DNA of 57,156 nucleotides, from IMG/VR virus record IMGVR_UViG_3300036819_000112, positions 1 through 57,156 of that record; one strand, 5' to 3'. The position numbers were made by a program, and so were the translations under genes. The notes beneath the pieces were generated by a model. It ran no database searches. It worked only from the letters and a program-made list of their open reading frames with translations, and had not been told where the DNA came from. Of the stretch, positions 1 to 57,156 are shown piece by piece (the first letter of the stretch is position 1; each line of letters opens with the position of its first letter). This DNA comes from a virus.

Positions 1-127
1 ACCGCCATGAGCCGCGGCGACGGATCAGGCCTATGGCAGACCGAGAGGAATCTTTCGCGCCTGCGTGACGAATGGGCCAAGGGCACAAGCACCGCCGAAA
101 TCGGCCGGCTGCTCAGGGCGTCGAAAA
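1..127. repeat. Terminal direct repeat, left copy
   Basis: These 127 bases are identical to positions 57030-57156. An exact end overlap of this length is what a k-mer assembler leaves on a circular or circularly permuted molecule. The genome is therefore closed, and position 1 falls just before the GcrA-like gene by chance. A true physical terminal repeat is possible but less likely at exactly 127 bases. Confidence 0.95.
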
Positions 128-582
128 GTGCCATCGTCGGCAAGGCCGGGCGGCTTGACCTGCCAGGGCGGCCGTCGCCGATCAAGCGCGGCCCCGATCA
201 TATACCCGTGCCGATTTCCGAGCGGGAGCGCCAGAGAGCGATCCCGCAGACCACCCTGCCGCCGATCGCCTCCGAGGTGCCCGCACCGGAGGTGACGTCC
301 AGGGACGCCCCGACGCTGCCAGCCCCGATTTCGCCGCCGCCCGCGCCCCGCCCGGTGATCGCCGCGCCTGTTCCCCCAGCGATGCCGGCATCGGCCTTCA
401 GCGAAGACGACAGGACATGCCGCTGGCCGATCACCGAACGCCCGTACCGGTACTGCGATCAGCCCACCTTTGGGCGGCTGGCCTTTTGCGAGAAGCACGC
501 CGGCAAAGCCTACCAGACCGAGGGGTGGCGACAACGGGCGAACGCCGGTCCACCGGCGCATGCATCTGGGGGAGGTGATTGA
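7..582 (+). CDS. gcrA: GcrA-family cell-cycle regulator homologue
   Basis: GcrA proteins bind sigma70 RNA polymerase and activate promoters carrying methylated GANTC in Alphaproteobacteria. Residues 10-55 form the N-terminal DNA-binding helical domain: a tryptophan start (LWQTERNLSRLRDEW) followed by TAEIGRLLRASKSAIVGKAGRL, whose AIVGK segment is the family signature. A proline-rich linker (about 60-130) leads to a cysteine-rich C-terminus with CRWPITERPYRYCDQP and CEKHAGKAY, as in host GcrA. Length (191 aa) is normal. It lies in the right early operon: its ATG overlaps the stop of the preceding gene (57036-57039 in the duplicated end), and its stop overlaps the next gene, whose Shine-Dalgarno (568-575) lies inside it. 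Family assignment is firm; its targets are unknown. Confidence 0.9.
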   Translation: MSRGDGSGLWQTERNLSRLRDEWAKGTSTAEIGRLLRASKSAIVGKAGRLDLPGRPSPIKRGPDHIPVPISERERQRAIPQTTLPPIASEVPAPEVTSRDAPTLPAPISPPPAPRPVIAAPVPPAMPASAFSEDDRTCRWPITERPYRYCDQPTFGRLAFCEKHAGKAYQTEGWRQRANAGPPAHASGGGD

Positions 583-1886
583 TGTCCTGGGCAATGGAGC
601 TCTCCCCGGCCGGGTTTGACGGCATGTTTGCCGACCTCGCGATGATGGATCGCAAGACCGGTCGGGCCTACCTCCAGCTGCTCGGCTACCTCCGGCGCTT
701 CGGCTCAGTCCCGTCCGGAGAGCGCGCGCTTGCCAGCGTGCTGGGGGTGACGGTCGGGTTCCTTCGCGAAGTCGCCTGGCCGCTGCTGGAAGACCGCCTG
801 GAGCTTTCGGCGGACGGACGGCGGTATTCCGATCCCGACGTTACAGCGAGCCGGCCGCGGCGCCCGGTCCGTGAGCCAACGGACGATCGGATCAAAAATC
901 AGCAGCAGCAGGATGCCGCCAAAGCCAGATGGGCGAAGCAACGCGCCGCCGGGGAGCCGCTACAAACAGATGCGCAGGCGCATCCTGAAACGCATGCGGA
1001 GCGCATGCGATCTGATGCGGAAACGCATGTGATTTCAATGCGCGGCGCATCGGAAATGCATGCGGAAACGCATTCCACTGATGCGCCCAGCGCATCGTCG
1101 AGCGCATCCGGCGCATATGCGCTCGCGCATGCGCGCGCTCTCTCTCCCTCTGATACTTCTCTTGCTGAATCCCCTGATAATTGGAGAGATTCTTTGGGAG
1201 AGAGAGAGGACGCGCTCATGCGCAGCGATGCGTCGGCGCATGCGGAGCGCATGCGATCTGATGCGTCCGCGCATGCGTCAAGCGATGCGCCCGCCCCCGA
1301 AGCGCATCGTGCATCGGGACGCAAACAGCAGCCGCCGAGTCGCCCGAGTATCCCAATCCCACCGGACTGGAGGCCGACACCGGAGGACGCGTTGGCTGCT
1401 CGGGGCCGGGGCTACGATCCTGACGAACTCGCGCAAGGCTTCCTCGACTGGTATCTCGGCCGAGACGAGGTCAGCCCTGACTGGAATGCGAAGTTCCGCA
1501 CATGGATGCGGCGGGAGAAGAGTCCTCCCAACAGCAATCTCCAGCAGGGCACCATCAAGCTGCCGATCGAGGGCGGCGTTTCTGACGAGGCAGATGATCC
1601 CGCCGCGGCCGTGGGGGATGGCGTGGAGGCGCAATGGGTTCGCGCATCGCGCCAGCTCAAAGCTGAAATCGGCCCTGTCCCGTACCGGACCTGGATGTCG
1701 AAGGCCGCCATCGTCGGGATAGAGGATGGCGAGGCCACAATCAGCCTGCCCTCGACGTTCCTGCGCGACTATGTCCGCACCAATTTCCTCGATCGGCTGA
1801 CGGCATTCTGGCGGGCGGACAATCCCACGGTCCTGCGGGTCCAGGCTGTGGTGGCATCCGTTGAACGTCGGACGGCAGGTGGCTGA
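582..1886 (+). CDS. Replication initiator-like protein with C-terminal DnaA-N-like domain
   Basis: 434 aa. The ATG at 582 has a GGGGGAGG ribosome site six bases upstream; the TTG at 579 is less likely. Residues 1-85 resemble the winged-helix N-terminus of phage replication proteins (DUF1376 type). Residues about 128-244 are low-complexity (Ala/Ser/His/Met/Arg) and are encoded by the ATGCG repeat array. Residues 260-310 (PPDWRPTPEDALAARG, then FLDWYLGRD...WNAKFRTWMRRE) match a segment common in phage O/DnaT-like proteins. The last about 80 residues (WVRASRQLKAEIGPVPYRTW ... LPSTFLRDYVRTNFLDRL) match the DnaA N-terminal domain, which in host DnaA contacts the helicase DnaB. No ATPase motifs are seen. 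The likely role is to bind the internal origin and recruit host helicase; this is inference. Confidence 0.75.
   Translation: MSWAMELSPAGFDGMFADLAMMDRKTGRAYLQLLGYLRRFGSVPSGERALASVLGVTVGFLREVAWPLLEDRLELSADGRRYSDPDVTASRPRRPVREPTDDRIKNQQQQDAAKARWAKQRAAGEPLQTDAQAHPETHAERMRSDAETHVISMRGASEMHAETHSTDAPSASSSASGAYALAHARALSPSDTSLAESPDNWRDSLGEREDALMRSDASAHAERMRSDASAHASSDAPAPEAHRASGRKQQPPSRPSIPIPPDWRPTPEDALAARGRGYDPDELAQGFLDWYLGRDEVSPDWNAKFRTWMRREKSPPNSNLQQGTIKLPIEGGVSDEADDPAAAVGDGVEAQWVRASRQLKAEIGPVPYRTWMSKAAIVGIEDGEATISLPSTFLRDYVRTNFLDRLTAFWRADNPTVLRVQAVVASVERRTAGG
964..1310. repeat. ATGCG/CGCAT iteron array, candidate replication origin
   Basis: I count about 30 copies of ATGCG or its complement CGCAT between 970 and 1307, many fused as GCATGC palindromes and mostly spaced 9-14 bp, close to one helical turn. 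A 29-bp block at 991-1019 recurs exactly at 1237-1265. Copies stop between 1134 and 1217, where an AT-richer segment lies. Iterons inside the initiator gene resemble the lambda O/ori arrangement. Confidence 0.75.
1138..1206. other. AT-richer island bounded by an 11-bp inverted repeat, candidate unwinding element
   Basis: The arm CTCTCTCTCCC (1138-1148) is the exact reverse complement of GGGAGAGAGAG (1196-1206). The 47 bp between are much AT-richer than the surroundings and free of ATGCG motifs, which flank it on both sides. Iterons flanking an easily melted segment is the normal architecture of a theta origin. The function is inferred. Confidence 0.55.
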
Positions 1887-2584: not shown

Positions 2585-3030
2585 GAAAAGACCTGCGCCC
2601 GCTCTATCCGCCGGACTGGCCAGAGATCAGCCAGCGCATCCGCTTCGACGTCGCCCAGGGTCGCTGCATGCGCTGCCGCCGCCCGCATCTCACCCGCATC
2701 CTCTGCCTGCCGGATGGCCGATGGGAAGATTTTGACCAGAGGTGTTGGTACGATGGGGACGGAGCCATGGTCCCCGCGCCTTCCGTGCTGGAGGTCGATC
2801 GCAGCGGCCATGTCACCCGGGTGGTGCTGGCCACGGCCCATCGCGACCATGATCCCGCCAACAGCGACGATCCAAACTTCGCCGCCTGGTGCCAGCGCTG
2901 TCATCTCCTGCACGACGCCGCCCATCATCGGGCACAGCGCCAGATCACACTCCGGCTTCGGTGGGCGATCGGGGACCTGTTCTCGGGCCTTTACTCGCTG
3001 GCCGGATATCCCAGGAACGGGGCGCCATGA
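2551..3030 (+). CDS. HNH-endonuclease-like protein with unclear start
   Basis: The frame encodes RPLYPPDWPEISQRIRFD, then CMRC, then a central TAHRDHDP and CQRCHLLHDAAHH. This is the zinc-binding HNH arrangement seen in small phage HNH proteins that nick or cut DNA. Conserved coding begins near 2593, but no ATG, GTG or TTG exists between the upstream stop (2548-2550) and ATG 2668. Starting at 2668 would remove the first cysteine of CMRC. A good GTG start exists at 2547 in another frame (VTANGAGGSNASKK), and a +1 shift at the AAGAAAAG run near 2583-2590 would join the two. So this is a translational shift, an unusual start, or a one-base lesion or assembly error. Its 3' end overlaps the Dam-type gene as ATGA. 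Confidence 0.6.
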   Translation, partial: PRTGREAPTPVRKDLRPLYPPDWPEISQRIRFDVAQGRCMRCRRPHLTRILCLPDGRWEDFDQRCWYDGDGAMVPAPSVLEVDRSGHVTRVVLATAHRDHDPANSDDPNFAAWCQRCHLLHDAAHHRAQRQITLRLRWAIGDLFSGLYSLAGYPRNGAP

Positions 3031-3881
3031 CCGGGCCATCACGGCCGCTGCTGCGCTGGCATGGTGGAAAGTGGCGCTTGGCTCCGTGGATCGTAGCGCA
3101 CCTTCCCCGCCATCGTGTTTACGTCGAGCCGTTCGGTGGCGCGGCGAGCGTCTTGCTCCGCAAACCCCGCTCCTATGCTGAAATCTACAACGACCTCGAC
3201 GGCGATGTGGTGAATCTGTTCCAGGTCCTGCGGTCCGGTCGCGCCGGCGAACTCGTCCGGGCTTTGGAGTTGACGCCGTTCGCAAGAGCCGAATTCGAGG
3301 GTGCCTACGAACGATCCGATGATCCGGTGGAGGAGGCTCGTAGCCTCATCGTGCGCTCATTCATGGGGTTCGGTTCCGACGGGTTCAACCGAGCCGTGCG
3401 AACCGGGTTTCGATCGACGTCCAATCGGAGCGGCACCACGCCGGCGCACGATTGGGCGAATTACCCCACGGCGCTACGGGCGATCATTAAGCGCCTGAAC
3501 GGGGTGGTCATCGAGCGGCGGCCGGCGCTGCAGGTGATGCTTCAACACAACGATGTAGACGCCCTGCACTACCTCGACCCACCCTATATGCCGGAAACCC
3601 GGTCGGAGAAGAGCCGCAAGACGGGCGAGCGCTATCATGCCTACGCGCACGAGATGACGCCGGCCGATCATGCAGCGCTGCTGGCTAGCCTTCCGAACAT
3701 CCGTGGTGCCGTGGTCATCAGCGGGTACGCAACTCGGCTCTACGACGAGGCGCTGGTGGGCTGGCGGCGGCTGACGATCGCGGCGCTGGCGGACGGTGCG
3801 GCAAAACGAACCGAGGTGCTTTGGCTCAATCCCAGAGCAGCAGATCAAATCGCAGGCGAGTTGGAGTTCGGCTCGCCATGA
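3027..3881 (+). CDS. D12-class (Dam-like) adenine-N6 DNA methyltransferase
   Basis: 284 aa, normal for the alpha-group D12 family that methylates adenine. Residues 6-12 (LLRWHGGK) and 34-47 (YVEPFGGAASVLLRK) are the SAM-binding motifs. NDLDGDVVNLFQVLR follows, and the catalytic DPPY motif is in YLDPPYMPETRSEKS. The ATG at 3027 overlaps the HNH stop, and the 3' end overlaps the next gene as ATGA, so it is translated within the early operon. With no partner nuclease it is probably an orphan methylase, protecting phage DNA or altering host methylation-sensitive promoters. Its recognition site cannot be read from sequence. Confidence 0.9.
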   Translation: MTGPSRPLLRWHGGKWRLAPWIVAHLPRHRVYVEPFGGAASVLLRKPRSYAEIYNDLDGDVVNLFQVLRSGRAGELVRALELTPFARAEFEGAYERSDDPVEEARSLIVRSFMGFGSDGFNRAVRTGFRSTSNRSGTTPAHDWANYPTALRAIIKRLNGVVIERRPALQVMLQHNDVDALHYLDPPYMPETRSEKSRKTGERYHAYAHEMTPADHAALLASLPNIRGAVVISGYATRLYDEALVGWRRLTIAALADGAAKRTEVLWLNPRAADQIAGELEFGSP

Positions 3882-4060
3882 AAAAAGCCGATCGCATCGC
3901 CGCTGAACAGGCGCTGTATCGGAAGCGGATGGCTGAACTCGCCGCCTGGAAACTGACGCAACCGTGCAAAAACAGCGGCAATGTCCAGGTTCGCGGCGAT
4001 GGCGGGTGCCTGCGGTGCGATGCCGACGCCGGCGAGGTATGCCGTGATGGCGCGCCATGA
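3878..4060 (+). CDS. Small cysteine-containing hypothetical protein
   Basis: 60 aa. A basic helical N-terminus (MKKADRIAAEQALYRKRMAEL) is followed by a four-cysteine segment (PCKNSG...GGCLRCDADAGEVC) that could bind zinc. ATGA overlaps at both ends tie it to the methylase and the next gene. Confidence 0.65.
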   Translation: MKKADRIAAEQALYRKRMAELAAWKLTQPCKNSGNVQVRGDGGCLRCDADAGEVCRDGAP

Positions 4061-4263
4061 GTCGAAGTTGGCCACTCGACGAAGAGTGCTGCACCGGGAT
4101 GGATGTGCCGATTGACCCTTGGACCGCGGAAGACGTCGCGTTCTGGACGGCAACCCCGACTTATCAGCCATGGAAAGACGTAGCGGCGCTATTCGGGGCG
4201 GAGATGGAGCGGACATCCGCTGCTGCTCGGGCGTTGGGCGCCAATCTGACGGAGAAGGGTTGA
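4057..4263 (+). CDS. Small hypothetical protein, possible DNA-binding
   Basis: 68 aa. PWTAEDVAFWTATPTYQPWKDVAALFGAEMERT resembles a short Myb/GcrA-type helical domain in which an enzyme-like helix pair precedes a recognition helix. Both ends overlap neighbouring genes by a few bases. Confidence 0.6.
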   Translation: MSRSWPLDEECCTGMDVPIDPWTAEDVAFWTATPTYQPWKDVAALFGAEMERTSAAARALGANLTEKG

Positions 4264-4628
4264 TGACCCCCATCGCCAAGGAGGAGATGCTCGCGCTCCG
4301 CGAAGACCGCGGCTGGTCGTACGCCAGGATCGCGGCGACTTACGGAGTGTCGCCGGCGGTGGTCTCCTACCATTGCCTGATTGCGGGGGCCGAGAAGCCG
4401 GGGCCATTCCCGAGATCGTATGTGCGCCCGGGCGCCATAGAGCAGCGCGGCAACCATGTCGTCCGCCGTTTCACCCCTGACGAAGATGCGCTGATCCTGG
4501 CGCTATCGCTGAGGGGTATGAGCAACGGGGCGATCGGCCGCTCGTGCTCACCGCGCCGCCGCCCCAACTCGATCAAAGGGCGACTCGCGACACTGGCCCG
4601 CCGGGAAGCTCGGGCGGAGGCAGGCTGA
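4263..4628 (+). CDS. Putative DNA-binding protein with two helix-turn-helix segments
   Basis: 121 aa. Residues 7-37 (EMLALREDRGWSYARIAATYG then VSPAVVSYHC) form a resolvase/sigma-like helix-turn-helix. A second segment (FTPDEDALILALSLRGMSNG then PNSIKGRLATLARRE) resembles a Myb/SANT or GcrA-like DNA-binding domain. The ATG overlaps the previous stop. It is probably an early transcription regulator; targets are unknown. Confidence 0.65.
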   Translation: MTPIAKEEMLALREDRGWSYARIAATYGVSPAVVSYHCLIAGAEKPGPFPRSYVRPGAIEQRGNHVVRRFTPDEDALILALSLRGMSNGAIGRSCSPRRRPNSIKGRLATLARREARAEAG

Positions 4629-5636: not shown

Positions 5637-5851
5637 GCACCTGGCCCAAGCCTACCTGGGAGCCGCTCTGGCTGCGCTGCGGACCGTGCGGCCACGAATG
5701 GGACGACTGGCAGCCATGCCATGTTCCGATCCTGACCTGGACGGCTCATGTCCAGGCGCTGCGCTGCCCGAAGTGCCGAGCAAGGCGGAAGCTGTTCATG
5801 CGTATGACGCCGCTCACAGAGGCCACTACCCAGGCCGGCACGGGAGTCTAG
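5633..5851 (+). CDS. Small zinc-ribbon protein
   Basis: 72 aa. Two CxxC pairs (CGPCGHEW near residue 16 and CPKC near 46) make a complete four-cysteine zinc ribbon. It is the last gene of the right early operon; its end runs into the convergent gene at 5826. Confidence 0.6.
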   Translation: MSTWPKPTWEPLWLRCGPCGHEWDDWQPCHVPILTWTAHVQALRCPKCRARRKLFMRMTPLTEATTQAGTGV

Positions 5852-6254
5852 CGGAGCGGGGATCATCCGCCCTGCCAGAAGTTGAGAGAGCAATCGCGAA
5901 ACCGCACACCCGGCAGGTCACCACCCAAAGCCCGCATCTCGCCGCTGGGTAGGGCAGTTCGACGCGGCAGGCGTGCGGAGCGTCAAGGGCAACGTCGATC
6001 GCGCTGCCATTGGGGTAGGCCGAGTCTGCGGGATAGCTCGCTTCCCGATGCTGATCGACCCAATCCACCAGAAACCGCGATTCTGCGACCGGCGCACCAG
6101 GCTCCAGTGACACCGCGCTGAACGCGAGCGGCTGTCCGCGCTGCATCGTCCCAGCCTCAGCCCAGCAGCGCTCATTCTCAAATTCCGGATCGTCAGGTGC
6201 ACCGTCGAAGGCGTCGTCGTGCGGATCGTCAACTCGGTCGGCGGTGTTCTGCAT
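5826..6254 (-). CDS. Conserved-looking hypothetical protein with CxxC motif
   Basis: 142 aa from ATG 6254, preceded on this strand by a GGGGG-containing ribosome site. The acidic N-terminus (DDPHDDAFDGAPDDPEFENE) precedes a C-terminal domain with ELPYPAARCGLWVVTCRVCG, then GRADDPRSARLPCRPG, a pattern I associate with uncharacterised alphaproteobacterial phage proteins. It converges on the early operon and diverges from the late region. Confidence 0.6.
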   Translation of the reverse strand: MQNTADRVDDPHDDAFDGAPDDPEFENERCWAEAGTMQRGQPLAFSAVSLEPGAPVAESRFLVDWVDQHREASYPADSAYPNGSAIDVALDAPHACRVELPYPAARCGLWVVTCRVCGFAIALSTSGRADDPRSARLPCRPG

Positions 6255-6679
6255 GCCCCCGATTCTGCCATCGCGAGCGGTGCAGTGGCAACGCGTGGCG
6301 GAGGTGATTCCGCATGCGGATCGCCGATGGACGCGCATAGAATCACTGCACGTCTTCGCATGGAAACAACGGCTGATTGATGTGCGATTTGTCTGCAAAA
6401 ATCGATGCGAAAATTCTGGATAAATAGATACACATCGATGCCGATTTTGATGCGCAGAACGCATGCGCTGGCACACCCCGCCGCACCTCTGCCCATGTCT
6501 ATTTCCCAGGCACGATCCGGTGCTTTTCCGTCTCAGCGCTTGATCGCGGCGCGCGCATAGCGATACAAAGTCGTTGACTATTAGATCGAAACGGCGCTGC
6601 CATCGGCGCTAGAAGCCAACGTTAACGGGGCCGGTTCCCGACTTTGGAACCATGCGCGCCGTGCGGGAGCAATCCAGAC
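6255..6679. promoter_or_regulatory. AT-rich divergent control region with ATGCG and GANTC sites
   Basis: No gene lies in these 425 bp. Eight ATGCG/CGCAT copies fall at 6311-6467, two more at 6554 and 6652, the same motif as in the initiator-gene array. The stretch 6361-6455 is clearly AT-rich. Three GANTC sites occur within 84 bp (6261, 6306, 6340). A TTGACT hexamer at 6574 could be a -35 element, but no convincing -10 follows at the right distance. It probably holds the promoters for the 5826 and 6680 genes and might be a second binding region for the initiator. Confidence 0.55.
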
Positions 6680-7339
6680 ATGGGTGACACTCATTCCGAT
6701 ATAGATCGGACCGCGGAGCCGTGGGAAATCGAAGGCATTAGCCGGCGCACCTGGTATCGGCGCTCTGCCGCCGAGTACAGAGACCTGAACACGAAGCGGG
6801 TCGAGCCGGCTGGTCCAAGGTGGTACTGCGGACGAACGGTGTATGGCGGCGAGCGGCAGGCCGCGGCAGAGTGTCGTTCGGCAGGCTTTGACGTGTTTGC
6901 GCCGACCATCTTCAAACCGGCCACGCGAGCCAGACGCAACGCCGTCGGCGCGATCATCCCCGCCCGCCCGGCCAGCGCGGTACCGCTGTTTCCGAACTAC
7001 ATCTTCTCCCGGTTTCGCGTGATCGATTACTGGCGGTATCGGGGCGATCTGCCGAGTGTGGCCGGCCTCCTCAGCCTCGCTCCCGACGCTCCTACTCCCA
7101 TGCCCGACCGCGCCATCAGCTTGATCCGAGGCATGTGCGGTGCCGACGACTGCTATCACGAGGACGGCGATACGCCGAACACCCTTGTCGGCGCTCTTCT
7201 GCGGCTGCTCAGCGGTCCGTTCAGTGGGTTCGAGGGCATCTGCGATTGGTCAGGGGACGGGAAGGCACGGATGCCGGTCACGTTCTGCGGCCGGCCGTGC
7301 CCTATTACCGTCGATCAGGAGATGGTGGAGGTGGTCTGA
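6680..7339 (+). CDS. NusG/RfaH-like transcription elongation factor, candidate late antiterminator
   Basis: 219 aa. After an N-terminal extension containing WYRRSAAEYRDLNTKR, residues about 45-110 match the NusG N-terminal domain (RWYCGRTVYGGERQAAAECR, FDVFAPTIFKP, PLFPNYIFSRFRV), which binds the RNA polymerase clamp. Residues about 168-219 (VGALLRLLSGPFSGFEGICD ... MPVTFCGRPCPITVDQEMVEVV) match the KOW domain. Specialised NusG paralogues (RfaH, LoaP) keep RNA polymerase elongating through long operons. This gene heads a roughly 33-kb mostly same-strand late region, so it could replace a Q-type antiterminator. ATG 6680 is preferred over TTG 6644 for its GGGAG ribosome site. No ops-like recruiting element was identified. 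Confidence 0.75.
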   Translation: MGDTHSDIDRTAEPWEIEGISRRTWYRRSAAEYRDLNTKRVEPAGPRWYCGRTVYGGERQAAAECRSAGFDVFAPTIFKPATRARRNAVGAIIPARPASAVPLFPNYIFSRFRVIDYWRYRGDLPSVAGLLSLAPDAPTPMPDRAISLIRGMCGADDCYHEDGDTPNTLVGALLRLLSGPFSGFEGICDWSGDGKARMPVTFCGRPCPITVDQEMVEVV

Positions 7340-7358: not shown

Positions 7359-7406
7359 TTGTCAGAGGGTGATAAGAAATATTATCTCCTATTGATATCC
7401 GGAGAT
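7359..7406 (+). promoter_or_regulatory. Putative promoter and inverted repeat before the recombinase
   Basis: In an AT-rich gap, TTGTCA (7359-7364) is followed after 15 bp by TATTAT (7380-7385). ATCTCC (7384-7389) and GGAGAT (7401-7406) form an inverted repeat just before the start codon that could be an operator or a translation-control hairpin. Confidence 0.4.
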
Positions 7407-7414
7407 CAGTAGCC

Positions 7415-8341
7415 ATGACCAGCGCCCTAGCAGTGCCTGTACGCTCGTCACCTCCCGCTCAGCGGCTGGATACAACCGATGACGCGATGGTTGCACTCTG
7501 GCTTGGGAGATACACCCGTTCGGCTCACACCAGGCGCAGCTACAAAGCGGACGTGGATGCATTCCGCGCTTTTGTCGCCAAACCATTGCCCACGGTCACC
7601 GGGAGCGACATCAATGCATTTGCGTCGAGCCTCGGCCACCTGGCGCCCGCGTCGCAGAGTCGCCGACTGTCGGCAGTCAAGTCGCTGATCGGACTGCTGC
7701 ACCGCCAGGGCCTGATGCCCTTCGATGTCGCCGCGGCGATCCAGCTCCCAGCGATCAAGGACACCTTGATCGAGCGGATCATGACGGAGGAGGCGGTGCA
7801 GCGCCTGCTCTGGGCGGCCGAGGCGCCGCCGCGGTTCTCCCGGATAAACAATCGCACAACGCGATGGGCCAAGCGCAACGCGGCGCTGTTGCGGTTGCTT
7901 TATGGTGCTGGTTTGCGAATCAGCGAGGCGTGCGGCTTGTGCTGGCGCGATCTAACGCCCCGTGATCAGGCCGGCCAGCTGAACGTGCTGGGCAAAGGCG
8001 GCAAGACGCGCCCGGTGCTGCTGACCAAATCACTTTGGGACCGACTCGCCGAGTTGCGAGGCAGTGCCGGCCCGGGCGATTCAGTTTTCAAGTCGCGCGA
8101 AGGTGGCGCATTGGCACCATCGCAGGTCGATCGGATTATGAAAACTGCGGTAAAACGCGCCCAACTACCGCCGGCGGTGTCAGCTCACTGGCTCCGGCAC
8201 GCCCACGCAAGTCATGCCCTCGATCGCGGCGCTCCGGTACATGTCGTGCAAACGACGCTCGGCCATGCGTCGCTGACCACGACCACTCGTTACACTCATG
8301 CGCGGCCTGGCGACAGTAGCGCTAAGTATCTCACGGCATAG
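7415..8341 (+). CDS. XerC/XerD-like tyrosine recombinase
   Basis: 308 aa, normal for Xer proteins. The N-terminal SAM-like core-binding domain (residues 20-110) precedes the catalytic domain. Catalytic residues are visible: Arg in GAGLRISEACGL, Lys in GKGGKTRPV, HWLRHAHASH, GHASLTTTTRYTH with the nucleophilic tyrosine. It lies second in the late region, far from the phage-type integrase at 43843. It may resolve genome multimers or act on a dif-like site; the role is inferred. Confidence 0.85.
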   Translation: MTSALAVPVRSSPPAQRLDTTDDAMVALWLGRYTRSAHTRRSYKADVDAFRAFVAKPLPTVTGSDINAFASSLGHLAPASQSRRLSAVKSLIGLLHRQGLMPFDVAAAIQLPAIKDTLIERIMTEEAVQRLLWAAEAPPRFSRINNRTTRWAKRNAALLRLLYGAGLRISEACGLCWRDLTPRDQAGQLNVLGKGGKTRPVLLTKSLWDRLAELRGSAGPGDSVFKSREGGALAPSQVDRIMKTAVKRAQLPPAVSAHWLRHAHASHALDRGAPVHVVQTTLGHASLTTTTRYTHARPGDSSAKYLTA

Positions 8342-8350
8342 GTTTCATTC

Positions 8351-9961
8351 GTGGCAGCAGGCTTCAAGACAGGCGGTCGAGTGAAAGGTTCCCTCGACAA
8401 AGGACCGAGGAAGCGGAGGTCCTCTGTGTCTGTAGATGCACATGTCACTACCAGAGTAGTGGCAGCGGGGGCGGGGGCGCCCCCCACCGCGCCCATTATT
8501 CCAGCCTCGCGCCCGGGCGCGCGCGCGAGGACGTCACTGAAAGCCGCTGCAGCGGCCGGTTTGCCGCCACCAGAGGCCGGTTCCATTCTTCCCGTCTCGC
8601 AAGCGGCGGCGGACCCGTCGTTCCCGAAATACCGCACCATGGCAACCGACAAGTTGGTGCCCTACGCGAACAATGCCCGTACCCATTCGAAGGCGCAGAT
8701 TGCCAAGATAGCCGCCAGCATTAAGGAGTTTGGCTTCACCAACCCCGTCCTCACTGACGGCAAGCGTGGCATCATCGCCGGTCACGGCCGAGTCCTTGCG
8801 GCACAGATGCTGGACATGGTCTCGGTGCCGATAATCGAGCTGTCCCACCTGAGCGTGGCCCAGCGGCGAGCTTACATTCTTGCGGACAACCGACTAGCGC
8901 TTGACGCTGGATGGGACGATGAACTGCTGGCGCTTGAGCTCGGTGCGTTGCGCGCTGATGGCTTTGACCTCTCGCTTACCGGTTTTGATTTCAACGAGAT
9001 CGGAATGCTGCTTGGCTCATCGGAGGGTCTTACCGATCCTGACGACGCACCGCCGGCCCCGTCGCAGCCCGTATCGATTGCGGGCGATGTGTGGCTGCTC
9101 GGCGGGCACAGGCTGGCCTGTGGGGACTCTACGGATGCGCGGGTGGTCGCGGCTGCGCTGGGCGGCGCGAAGCCGCATTTGATGGTCACTGATCCGCCCT
9201 ATGGCGTGGGCTACGACGCGAACTGGCGAAATGAGCGCGTGCGGCAGGACGGTTCTCCCGTGGGTGGGCGAGCTGTCGGTAAAGTGGCGAACGACGGGGA
9301 TGCCGACTGGCGCGAGGCGTGGGCGCTGTTTCCCGGCTCGGTCGCTTATGTCTGGCATGCCGGCCTTCATGGAGAGCAGGTGATCAGCAGCCTGGTGGCG
9401 AACGGCTTCAGGATTCGAGCGCAGATCATCTGGGTCAAGACTCGTGCGGTGATCTCGCGGGGTCACTACCATTGGCAGCATGAACCTGCGCTCTACAGCG
9501 TACGCGAGGGGGAAGACGATCAGTGGCGCTTCGTCCCCGAGCACGAGGTGGTCGATTACTCTGTCCGCGAGGGCGAAACCGGGCAATGGCAAGGCGGCCG
9601 CAAGCAGTCGACCGTTTGGAACATTGAGCACATCAAATCCGAAACCGGCCACAGCACCCAGAAGCCGGTCGAGTGCATGCGGCGTCCTATCGAAAACAAT
9701 TCATCTCCCGGGCATGCGGTCTACGACCCCTTCGCCGGCTCCGGTACCACCATCATAGCCGCTGAGATGACCGGCCGCGCCTGCCATGCGATCGAACTCA
9801 GCCCCGCCTATGTCGACGTCGCTATTCTCCGTTGGCAGGCGTTCACCGGCAAAGATGCTGTCCATGGCGAAGACGGACGCACTTTTGCCTCCATCGGTCT
9901 CGAACGGAGCGTACCTCCGCAAGCCGCCCGCACCCGGACCCGCGTCAAGGTTGAAGCGTAG
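8351..9961 (+). CDS. ParB/Srx-like domain fused to beta-group DNA methyltransferase
   Basis: 536 aa. After about 95 disordered residues, residues 96-215 form a ParB/Srx-type domain (KLVPYANNARTHSKAQIAKI, GIIAGHGRVLAAQML, RRAYILADNRLAL). Residues about 230-520 are a DNA methylase with DPPYGVGYDANW before DPFAGSGTTIIAAEMTGR. Catalytic motif before SAM motif defines the beta group, and DPPY suggests adenine-N6 (SPPY would suggest cytosine-N4). The region between is the target-recognition domain. Such ParB-methylase fusions are frequent in prophages next to terminase genes, as here. The translation start is uncertain; GTG 8351 has an open upstream. Confidence 0.88.
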   Translation: MAAGFKTGGRVKGSLDKGPRKRRSSVSVDAHVTTRVVAAGAGAPPTAPIIPASRPGARARTSLKAAAAAGLPPPEAGSILPVSQAAADPSFPKYRTMATDKLVPYANNARTHSKAQIAKIAASIKEFGFTNPVLTDGKRGIIAGHGRVLAAQMLDMVSVPIIELSHLSVAQRRAYILADNRLALDAGWDDELLALELGALRADGFDLSLTGFDFNEIGMLLGSSEGLTDPDDAPPAPSQPVSIAGDVWLLGGHRLACGDSTDARVVAAALGGAKPHLMVTDPPYGVGYDANWRNERVRQDGSPVGGRAVGKVANDGDADWREAWALFPGSVAYVWHAGLHGEQVISSLVANGFRIRAQIIWVKTRAVISRGHYHWQHEPALYSVREGEDDQWRFVPEHEVVDYSVREGETGQWQGGRKQSTVWNIEHIKSETGHSTQKPVECMRRPIENNSSPGHAVYDPFAGSGTTIIAAEMTGRACHAIELSPAYVDVAILRWQAFTGKDAVHGEDGRTFASIGLERSVPPQAARTRTRVKVEA

Positions 9962-43842: not shown

Positions 43843-44826
43843 TCAATCCGCTGGTTTCAGCGCCTTTTTTGTATTTCCTGTCCATCGCAAAACCGCCGCC
43901 TCTGCTAGCCGTTCCTGATCGGTCCCGGCAGTATAGAGTTGCAACATCGCAAGACTCCTGTGCCCGGTGATCGCGCCAATCTCGTGAAGTGTACAGCCGC
44001 ACTGCGCGAGATTGATCGCGGCTAGCTTTCGTAGTCCATGGATGTTCCGATGCGGCGGAAAGCCCTCCAACTTTGCCAGGGCATCACCCAATTGCCGGGA
44101 CAGGTTCGTGACTTGCCACGGCCTGTCGAACTTGTTGACCAGGATCATCGTTGCCGCTGCCTCGGCTCGCCATGCATCCAGTTCTGCCTTCAGCGCAGGA
44201 TGGACGGGTATCACTAACGCCGCGCCCGTCTTGCTCTGCCGGAGTCGCAGGCTTCGCCCATCATAGGCTGACCAAGGTAATCGGCACAGATCGCCCCGGC
44301 GCTGGCCGCTGTAGAGCGCCAGCACGACCGGGCGCCGCAAATGCTCCGGAAGTTGGCGCATCGCCTGTTCGGCCTCTGCGGGCGTCCAGGCGGGGAGGTG
44401 GCCGCCTTTCAGTCGCTTCATGCGCAGCGTCGGGGACATCTTTAGCCAGCCGTTTTCGACGGCCCATCCGAATAGTGCCGACGCGGTGCGCACGAAGCCT
44501 GTGGAAGCGCCGTTGCCTTTCGCTTGAGCTAGTGCGTTGCGGATGTCCGTAATCTGCTTGCGCTCAATCCGCGATGCCTGGACGTGCTCCATGCCTACCA
44601 GTGGCCGAAGGTACGTGAGGTAGTTCGCTTGGGTGCTCGGCGCGAGCGCGCGCCACTCCGGACTGCGTTCCCACGCGGCGATGAGTTCGCCCATAGTCTC
44701 GCCTTTCGAGCGGACGCGCCTCGGCTGATATGGCGGATAGCGGTAGCTTCGCGTGGTCCCGTCAGCTAGGACGCGGTGGACTACCCTTTCGGCCTTGCGC
44801 GAGGATTTTCTGGACAACGGCGGCAC
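43843..44826 (-). CDS. int: Tyrosine-type phage integrase
   Basis: 327 aa from GTG 44826; the frame is open to TTG 44877, overlapping the excisionase-like gene by 65-116 bp. Arm- and core-binding parts (residues about 45-140) precede the catalytic domain with Arg in SGQRRGDLC, Lys in RQSKTGAAL, HGLRKLAAINLA, GHRSLAMLQLYT. It integrates or, with the excisionase, excises the genome at attP. It is the last gene of the leftward early operon. Confidence 0.88.
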   Translation of the reverse strand: MPPLSRKSSRKAERVVHRVLADGTTRSYRYPPYQPRRVRSKGETMGELIAAWERSPEWRALAPSTQANYLTYLRPLVGMEHVQASRIERKQITDIRNALAQAKGNGASTGFVRTASALFGWAVENGWLKMSPTLRMKRLKGGHLPAWTPAEAEQAMRQLPEHLRRPVVLALYSGQRRGDLCRLPWSAYDGRSLRLRQSKTGAALVIPVHPALKAELDAWRAEAAATMILVNKFDRPWQVTNLSRQLGDALAKLEGFPPHRNIHGLRKLAAINLAQCGCTLHEIGAITGHRSLAMLQLYTAGTDQERLAEAAVLRWTGNTKKALKPAD

Positions 44827-45028
44827 TCGCTGCTCTTGGATCAGTGGACGATGTTCCCCCGCTAAACGCGGCGTCAAGGGCGAGCCGGTCCCATCGTGGG
44901 GAGCGTACGCCGAGAGTGTGATCGGGTGCTGGAATGCGACCCTGCTTCACCAGACGGGGCAGGGCATCGACCCGCACGCTTATGTAGGCGGCGGTCGATT
45001 CGGCGTTCAGCCATCGTGCGTCACCCAT
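44762..45028 (-). CDS. Excisionase-like small DNA-binding protein
   Basis: 88 aa from ATG 45028 with a GAGGGGAGG ribosome site. WLNAESTAAYISVRVDALPR resembles the MerR/excisionase helix-turn-helix. It overlaps int, as xis genes commonly do. Confidence 0.65.
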   Translation of the reverse strand: MGDARWLNAESTAAYISVRVDALPRLVKQGRIPAPDHTLGVRSPRWDRLALDAAFSGGTSSTDPRAASAAVVQKILAQGRKGSPPRPS

Positions 45029-45303
45029 CAGCCTCCCCTCCAAACACAAGCCGCCCTGAATCCGAAGTAATGATGCTCGACCAGGTCGAAGCGGACCTCG
45101 CACCCGCAGGCGACGCACTGCTCCATCTGCTCCGGACCCTCCCAGGCAGGCGTCGAGGCATGGCCGCGGCAGGCGCCGTGCTTGTTCCGACGGGTGATCG
45201 CGTCATCCACAAAGACACCACATCGCTTGCAGTAGCGCTGATGCAGGTCACTCTGGTTGTGGCTGATCGATGAGCAGAACGGGCAGGTGAAGGGGTCAGG
45301 CAT
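45028..45303 (-). CDS. Zinc-finger-like protein
   Basis: 91 aa. CPFC, YCKRC, CVACGCE and further histidines give two probable zinc knuckles. The start follows a 3' overlap with the 45296 gene and the stop overlaps the excisionase start. Confidence 0.6.
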   Translation of the reverse strand: MPDPFTCPFCSSISHNQSDLHQRYCKRCGVFVDDAITRRNKHGACRGHASTPAWEGPEQMEQCVACGCEVRFDLVEHHYFGFRAACVWRGG

Positions 45304-54470: not shown

Positions 54471-54501
54471 TTGACATATCCAACAGTTCGTTGGATGTTC
54501 G
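54471..54501. promoter_or_regulatory. Divergent immunity promoters with central operator
   Basis: Rightward TTGACA (54471-54476), 17 bp, GATGTT (54494-54499). Leftward CGAACA (54501-54496), 17 bp, TATGTC (54478-54473). ATCCAAC-AGTTC-GTTGGAT (54478-54496) fills both spacers. ATG 54505 lies six bases after the rightward -10, so the Cro-like mRNA would be nearly leaderless. Confidence 0.7.
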
Positions 54502-54504
54502 GGT

Positions 54505-54810
54505 ATGACCCTGGCATCCTACATGACCGAAAAAGGTCTGACCGACGGAGATCTCGCCGCATCGCTTGGTGTGAGCGGCGAACTCGTGCGGCTTTGGCGG
54601 CATGGGCACCGAGCAATTTCGGCCAAGCGCGCGATTACGATATCCGAGGTCACCGGTATTCCCCGCCATGAACTTCGGCCCGATCTGTGGGATGCCCCCG
54701 CCCTTTCCCCGTCCTCGCCAGCCAATGACACCCCAAAGCCCAAGGCCAAGCGCCCCACCCGAAGCGCCGGCGCCGCCGCCACCCCACCATCACCCGCCGA
54801 AGCCGCCTGA
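54505..54810 (+). CDS. YdaS/Cro-like regulator
   Basis: 101 aa. LTDGDLAASLGVSGELVRLW and the closing ISEVTGIPRHELRPDLW are the YdaS/Cro-like helix-turn-helix. The Pro/Ala-rich C-terminus is disordered. First gene of the right early operon; it likely competes with the repressor at the shared operator. Confidence 0.8.
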   Translation: MTLASYMTEKGLTDGDLAASLGVSGELVRLWRHGHRAISAKRAITISEVTGIPRHELRPDLWDAPALSPSSPANDTPKPKAKRPTRSAGAAATPPSPAEAA

Positions 54811-56717: not shown

Positions 56718-57039
56718 TCCTCCCAGCGCAAGCCCAGCGTCGGGGCAAACGTCTGACAACAGCGTGACATCACACGCGCGCGTCCGCATTGTCCGGCGCT
56801 GCCATGACTGCGGTGCAACTCCGCGTGAGGCGACGTTCCCCGGCACGCGCAAGCCCAGCCAGATCGACCGCTGCATCGATTGCCTGGCCGAACTTGAACG
56901 GCTGGCGGAAGCCACGCCTGCGCGCTTCGCAAAGCCCGCGAAGCCGATCCAGACCCGACGGAGGTATCGCGCTGCATTCTGCTACCGGGCGAAGCAGGCC
57001 CAAGGGGATCTGGTCGACCTGCTGGTGCCACCGCCATGA
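56689..57039 (+). CDS. Small zinc-finger protein with probable ATT start
   Basis: 116 aa from ATT 56689, five bases after AGGAGG; GTG 56764 gives 91 aa and has no comparable ribosome site. CHDCGATPRE and CIDCLAEL form a zinc ribbon, followed by a basic helical tail (KPIQTRRRYRAAFCYRAKQA). The last bases overlap the GcrA-like start. It probably regulates or accompanies the replication genes that follow. Confidence 0.6.
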   Translation: MSTDTEYFISPPSASPASGQTSDNSVTSHARVRIVRRCHDCGATPREATFPGTRKPSQIDRCIDCLAELERLAEATPARFAKPAKPIQTRRRYRAAFCYRAKQAQGDLVDLLVPPP

Positions 57040-57156
57040 GCCGCGGCGACGGATCAGGCCTATGGCAGACCGAGAGGAATCTTTCGCGCCTGCGTGACGA
57101 ATGGGCCAAGGGCACAAGCACCGCCGAAATCGGCCGGCTGCTCAGGGCGTCGAAAA
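57030..57156. repeat. Terminal direct repeat, right copy
   Basis: Exact copy of positions 1-127. It contains the start of the GcrA-like gene (ATG 57036), which continues at the left end. Confidence 0.95.

Follow-up and report, generated by a model that had tools for sequence, protein, structure and literature searches.

How late transcription is timed in temperate phages outside the enterobacteria is poorly known. Here, we ask what a 425-bp gap between two divergent genes (positions 6255 to 6679) might contribute to that timing in one phage. The sequence analyzed, hereafter the window, comprises 57,156 bases and is an entire virus record.

Gene order around the divergent region

The first and last 127 bases of the window (1 to 127 and 57030 to 57156) are identical, forming direct terminal repeats, and thus the record probably is a complete genome. 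Gene order is lambda-like, and we read the phage as temperate. We infer that the host is an alphaproteobacterium, as both a GcrA homolog and genome-wide depletion of GANTC point there. The genes that bear on the control region are as follows:

7 to 582, plus strand: GcrA homolog (Pfam GcrA, E=1.4e-14)
579 to 1886, plus strand: O-like replication initiator (DnaA_N, E=2.7e-13; DnaT, E=0.0096)
2889 to 3881: D12-type DNA methyltransferase
4119 to 4628: candidate helix-turn-helix (HTH) protein, a little upstream of the divergent region
5826 to 6254, minus strand: small cysteine-containing protein, conserved in the relative L002, described below (58% identity)
6680 to 7339, plus strand: NusG-like specialized elongation factor with NGN and KOW domains (Pfam NusG, E=4.3e-9; PHROG transcription antiterminator)
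7415 to 8341: second tyrosine recombinase
54505 to 54810: HTH protein of the YdaS/Cro type, opposite a leftward frame

The NusG profile match spans both the NGN and the KOW domain of the 6680 to 7339 product, and that gene heads a rightward, late-side block that continues with the tyrosine recombinase, a second methyltransferase, terminase, portal, and capsid genes. With a leftward gene on one side and the NusG-like gene and late-side genes on the other, the gap appears to be a divergent, late-side control region, as the sequence-only reading had it. Moreover, an inverted repeat, ATCCAACn5GTTGGRT, occurs at 54478 and 51210, about 3.3 kb apart, as paired operators by the Cro-like gene region that resemble lambda oL/oR. 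Because these CI-type operators lie there and no copy was found within 6255 to 6679, the gap does not appear to be another ordinary repressor operator.

Some neighboring features are noted in their own right. An inverted repeat (ATCTCC-tattgatatcc-GGAGAT, 7384 to 7406) just ahead of the tyrosine recombinase gene is possibly a Cre/Xer-like resolution site, and a separate integrase and an excisionase-like gene are found at 43843 to 45118. There are two adenine-methyltransferase-like genes (8351 to 9961 and 2889 to 3881), one of them fused to a ParB-like domain, and the control region could contain targets of theirs.

To find relatives of this region, the NusG-like, initiator, and leftward proteins were used as queries against viral contigs, genome contigs, a total of about 1,080 genomes, phages, and plasmids. 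Within that set, the only other sequence with the layout was L002 (IMG/VR 3300045777_000185; 9,246 bp), in which a GcrA homolog, a DnaA_N initiator with embedded repeats, the leftward gene, and the NusG-like gene (40% identity) recur. Other matches were set aside. One (G222) was antisense to a hisD-like frame, and in another (G888) the relative of the leftward gene adjoined an integrase and had no NusG-like neighbor. Loci reached via the ParB-methyltransferase were without the control module, and matches of phage records to the initiator C terminus were ordinary dnaA genes on phage-labeled contigs. We note that L002 encodes a stand-alone DnaA domain IV (2244 to 2552; Bac_DnaA_C, E=2e-19) after an initiator with DnaA domain I at its end, and the two together look like a split DnaA. 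No match to DnaA domain IV was found in the window.

ATGCG words in the origin array and in the control region

The initiator of the window has a helical N-terminal part, a low-confidence linker that contains the iterons, a weak DnaT-like stretch, and a C-terminal DnaA domain I. Its structure model is poor overall, with pLDDT of 77 to 86 in the C-terminal domain only. The ATGCG features of the origin and the gap are as follows:

970 to 1307: origin array inside the initiator gene, 30 ATGCG matches that make 24 independent sites
6311 to 6467: ATGCG cluster in the control region
6380 to 6454: AT-rich tract (62 to 66% AT) inside the cluster
6415 to 6423, minus strand: DnaA-box-like word TTATCCAGA within the AT-rich tract
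6450 to 6467: composite unit ATGCG-CAGAA-CGCATGCG of the array type, the sole copy outside the origin array

The array repeats with a period of about 11 bp (10.85 to 11.15 bp) in two blocks that flank a gap at about 1134 to 1217, and its commonest 8-mers are CGCATGCG and GCATGCGC. The array gap itself holds two GANTC sites (1167 and 1188) and is flanked by an inverted repeat that is 85% complementary (1125 to 1150 and 1198 to 1223). The design resembles lambda O and ori-lambda in that the initiator gene holds its own repeats in a linker, occupies an early position in the right operon, and has an AT-richer stretch within or next to the array. Unlike those of lambda, the units here are short (ATGCG or CGCATGCG), numerous, and spaced at about 11 bp, and the initiator C terminus is DnaA domain I. 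A further difference is the second iteron-like cluster at the late control region, for which no counterpart is known in lambda.

The second cluster had been described as eight copies of the array motif beside an AT-rich tract. The motif is indeed common to both places, ATGCG being the core of the array, the tract is present, and the positions are correct: matches to ATGCG or CGCAT lie at 6311 (-), 6314 (+), 6334 (-), 6357 (-), 6405 (+), 6450 (+), 6460 (-), and 6463 (+). The eight matches amount to only six independent sites in 157 bp, however, because the palindrome CGCATGCG, present at both ends (6311 to 6318 and 6460 to 6467), is read on both strands and counted twice. Two more matches lie in the gap beyond the cluster, at 6554 (-) and 6652 (+).

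Whether six sites need any explanation at all has to be weighed, as a five-base word could cluster in a long non-coding gap by chance or local composition. Taken alone, the cluster is borderline: genome-wide P is about 0.03 to 0.08, and P is 0.03 against dinucleotide-model sequences of the region alone. Outside the origin array it has no equal: every other 160-bp stretch there holds fewer than six sites, and six were reached in 5, 0, and 2 of 60 Markov genomes of orders 1, 2, and 3, respectively. Also on the side of chance is the genome-wide count, by which ATGCG is rarer than expected in the window overall. Other sizeable non-coding stretches hold at most 4 ATGCG matches each, versus 10 in 6255 to 6679.

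Longer words and spacing point away from chance. Six of the nine genomic copies of CGCATGCG are in the array, two are in the cluster, and one is elsewhere; two non-array copies no more than 160 bp apart arose in 6, 4, and 2 of 150 simulated genomes (orders 2, 3, and 4). The array has seven instances of the arrangement ATGCG-n3..6-CGCATGCG, or its reverse, against a single one elsewhere, and the simulated genomes held it outside the array in 9, 4, and 3 of 150 cases (same orders). Moreover, the control region shares more 9-mers with the array than do 99.9% of other windows. Site centers in the cluster are 21.5, 23, 48, 45, and 11.5 bp apart and fit an 11.5-bp period, with P=0.009 in a band around the array period and 0.064 when the period is left free. 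The palindromes, composite unit, phasing, and 9-mers are overlapping measures whose P values are not to be multiplied, but they are partly independent and they agree. Longer shared words, composite unit, and phasing together make a purely accidental cluster unlikely, and the sites at 6311 to 6467 probably are bound by some protein. A profile scan built from all array sites was set aside because it discriminates poorly; it ranked 6463 second among non-array sites, and the other high scorers were scattered in coding sequence.

The cluster is about 210 to 370 bp upstream of the NusG-like start and 57 to 210 bp from the leftward ATG, and the initiator or another factor in that position could act on both divergent promoters. 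Alternatively, the region might be a second or accessory replication origin, in which iteron-like sites surround an AT-rich element for unwinding that includes a DnaA-box-like word, and the AT-rich tract between the sites and the word TTATCCAGA are what such an origin would contain. An origin there is very improbable, however, as its six sites compare with 24 in the main array, the cluster sits right in the gap of a divergent gene pair, the expected place for promoters, and L002 is without such an arrangement.

Most likely, the phage's own O-like initiator binds the ATGCG cluster as a set of secondary sites. Binding by the initiator seems the most economical reading for this genome, yet it fails the single comparative test available. 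The mid-gene repeats of the L002 initiator are GGACAGTGAAATT-like, in eight copies of mostly alternating orientation, and no copy of that iteron is found in the divergent region of L002, the one relative. Thus, both phages have the array-inside-initiator design but with different iteron sequences, and they do not share the second site. Initiator-mediated coupling of replication to transcription, as proposed by the sequence-only reading, is not conserved because the L002 iteron is absent from the L002 divergent region, and for the window we can only infer it.

A different regulator, of phage or host origin, might read RTGCG-type words and control the divergent promoters in both phages, such that the likeness to iterons is coincidental or convergent on a short word. 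RTGCG, a motif chosen post hoc, is enriched in both divergent regions (13 versus 2.8 expected in the window, P=8e-6; 9 versus 3.1 expected in L002, P=0.004), while the origin iterons of the two phages differ completely. Candidate regulators are the HTH protein at 4119 to 4628 and, just upstream of the L002 divergent region, a candidate HTH regulator of the OmpR-type winged helix class. Because the L002 region is mildly rich in RTGCG, a separate regulator remains a serious rival. The generalization to RTGCG was picked after both regions had been seen, however, and the sites in L002 are spaced differently from those in the window. Moreover, a separate regulator would leave unexplained why the array's 8-bp palindrome recurs here letter for letter, together with the composite unit, and we consider it possible but doubtful.

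GANTC sites and a promoter-like site for the leftward gene

How the GANTC sites of the gap relate to the ATGCG cluster is a separate matter, as a GANTC switch would be compatible with any reading of the latter. Two features are relevant:

6261, 6306, and 6340: three GANTC sites, spanning 6261 to 6344
6262 to 6291, minus strand: promoter-like site directed at the leftward gene (TTGCCA-18-CAGAAT, its -10 preceded by TG)

The three sites are where the sequence-only reading had placed them, but the special density claimed for them is not upheld. GANTC is depleted in this genome (110 sites versus 260 expected), so the proper expectation is about one per 520 bp rather than one per 256 bp. At 79 bp, the three sites form the tightest triple in the genome, yet 66% of random placements of 110 sites contained one equally tight (P about 0.66). 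Clustering was rejected as chance, and genome-wide counts part the two motifs: ATGCG density peaks here outside the array, and the GANTC triple is at chance level. Intergenic GANTC numbers 17 versus 11 expected by length, with a rough gene set, and an intergenic GANTC excess of more than 1.5-fold is reported for CcrM-bearing Alphaproteobacteria (PMC3973325). We conclude that GANTC in the control region is at chance level, with the usual alphaproteobacterial intergenic bias.

The three sites might nonetheless form a methylation-dependent promoter array read by GcrA, whether that of the host or that of the phage. A GcrA homolog is encoded here, as reported for phage phiCbK (PMC7987155), and for Caulobacter it is established that GcrA binds promoters carrying GANTC (PMC3667746). 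A single promoter-like site turned up in the gap (0.2 expected by chance), and the GANTC at 6261 to 6265 overlaps its -10-like hexamer, a possible resemblance to the Caulobacter GcrA/CcrM promoters. The start predicted from this site falls almost on the leftward ATG at 6254, such that the transcript would be nearly leaderless. At most, that one GANTC could make the leftward promoter sensitive to GcrA and CcrM. Unlike at the Caulobacter promoters, no significant GANTC clustering is seen here, the intergenic excess matches a general bias, and no GANTC position in the window's divergent region matches one in that of L002. A GcrA/CcrM switch therefore seems improbable.

A conserved block ahead of the NusG-like gene

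The better-supported control element, as we see it, lies within the gap but was absent from the sequence-only reading:

6624 to 6665, plus strand: conserved 42-bp block directly upstream of the NusG-like gene, with the inverted repeat GGTTCC/GGAACC and an outer stem ACGG/CCGT

The block is 81% identical to L002 positions 4051 to 4091, a level reached in none of 500 shuffles (Gumbel P=2e-5), and likeness between the rest of the two divergent regions is no greater than in shuffles. In L002, the block lies inside the longest open frame. In that frame, third positions are conserved no less than amino acids, and a mid-block one-base indel shifts the frame; aligned codons of the NusG-like genes themselves agree at 55, 60, and 47% of first, second, and third positions. 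Thus, third-position conservation and the frame-shifting indel make the block look like a nucleic acid element. The same fold is predicted in both phages, with inner stems GGTTCC/GGAACC (window) and GGCTCC/GGAGCC (L002) that differ by one compensatory change. Fold z-scores are only -1.1 and -1.6, energies not unusual for the composition, and two sequences cannot prove structure; the same pattern would be expected of a dyad-symmetric DNA operator. No Rfam match was found, nor any further copy of the hairpin at a meaningful E value in the window or 30 other loci.

Specialized NusG paralogs offer a precedent. A small RNA hairpin in the target operon's leader recruits LoaP (PMC12691694). UpxY proteins keep transcription from ending prematurely in the leaders that precede the upxY genes themselves, and loaP, taA, and upxY adjoin their targets (PMC7819879). 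As with LoaP and its RNA hairpin, UpxY and its 5' leader, and RfaH and ops, an NGN-KOW protein here comes first in the long operon block that it would serve, with a conserved putative hairpin upstream. The arrangement fits the LoaP/UpxY pattern and, by analogy, the place of lambda Q, and 6624 to 6665 is a candidate recruitment hairpin of that type or an operator. Unlike those systems, the NusG-like gene is phage-borne and stands in place of a Q-type antiterminator, recruitment is putative, and the predicted hairpin does not resemble the UNCG hairpin of LoaP.

How the two elements might work together can be outlined. The initiator would first fill the 24-site array within its own gene, and as it accumulates, it would then occupy the smaller, phased set about 5 kb away. 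Bound there, it might repress or activate locally, or loop to the origin, and in this way affect the leftward promoter or the start of the rightward NusG-like gene. The NusG-like protein, in turn, may load at the hairpin just before its own gene and render the rightward block processive. In this scheme, the three GANTC sites are background. Initiator binding combined with NusG-like loading at the hairpin is the account of 6255 to 6679 that we tentatively prefer, from sequence comparison. We would go further only as speculation: that the initiator, after filling the origin array, binds a second, weaker set of iterons and thereby serves as a late-gene timer, and that a NusG-type factor at its own-gene hairpin replaces the lambda Q system, is rather unlikely as a whole. 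If the initiator does read the late control region as well as the origin, replication would time the late genes by titration. Moreover, the conserved block before the phage NusG-like gene provides a concrete site at which to ask whether a NusG paralog serves as a late antiterminator.
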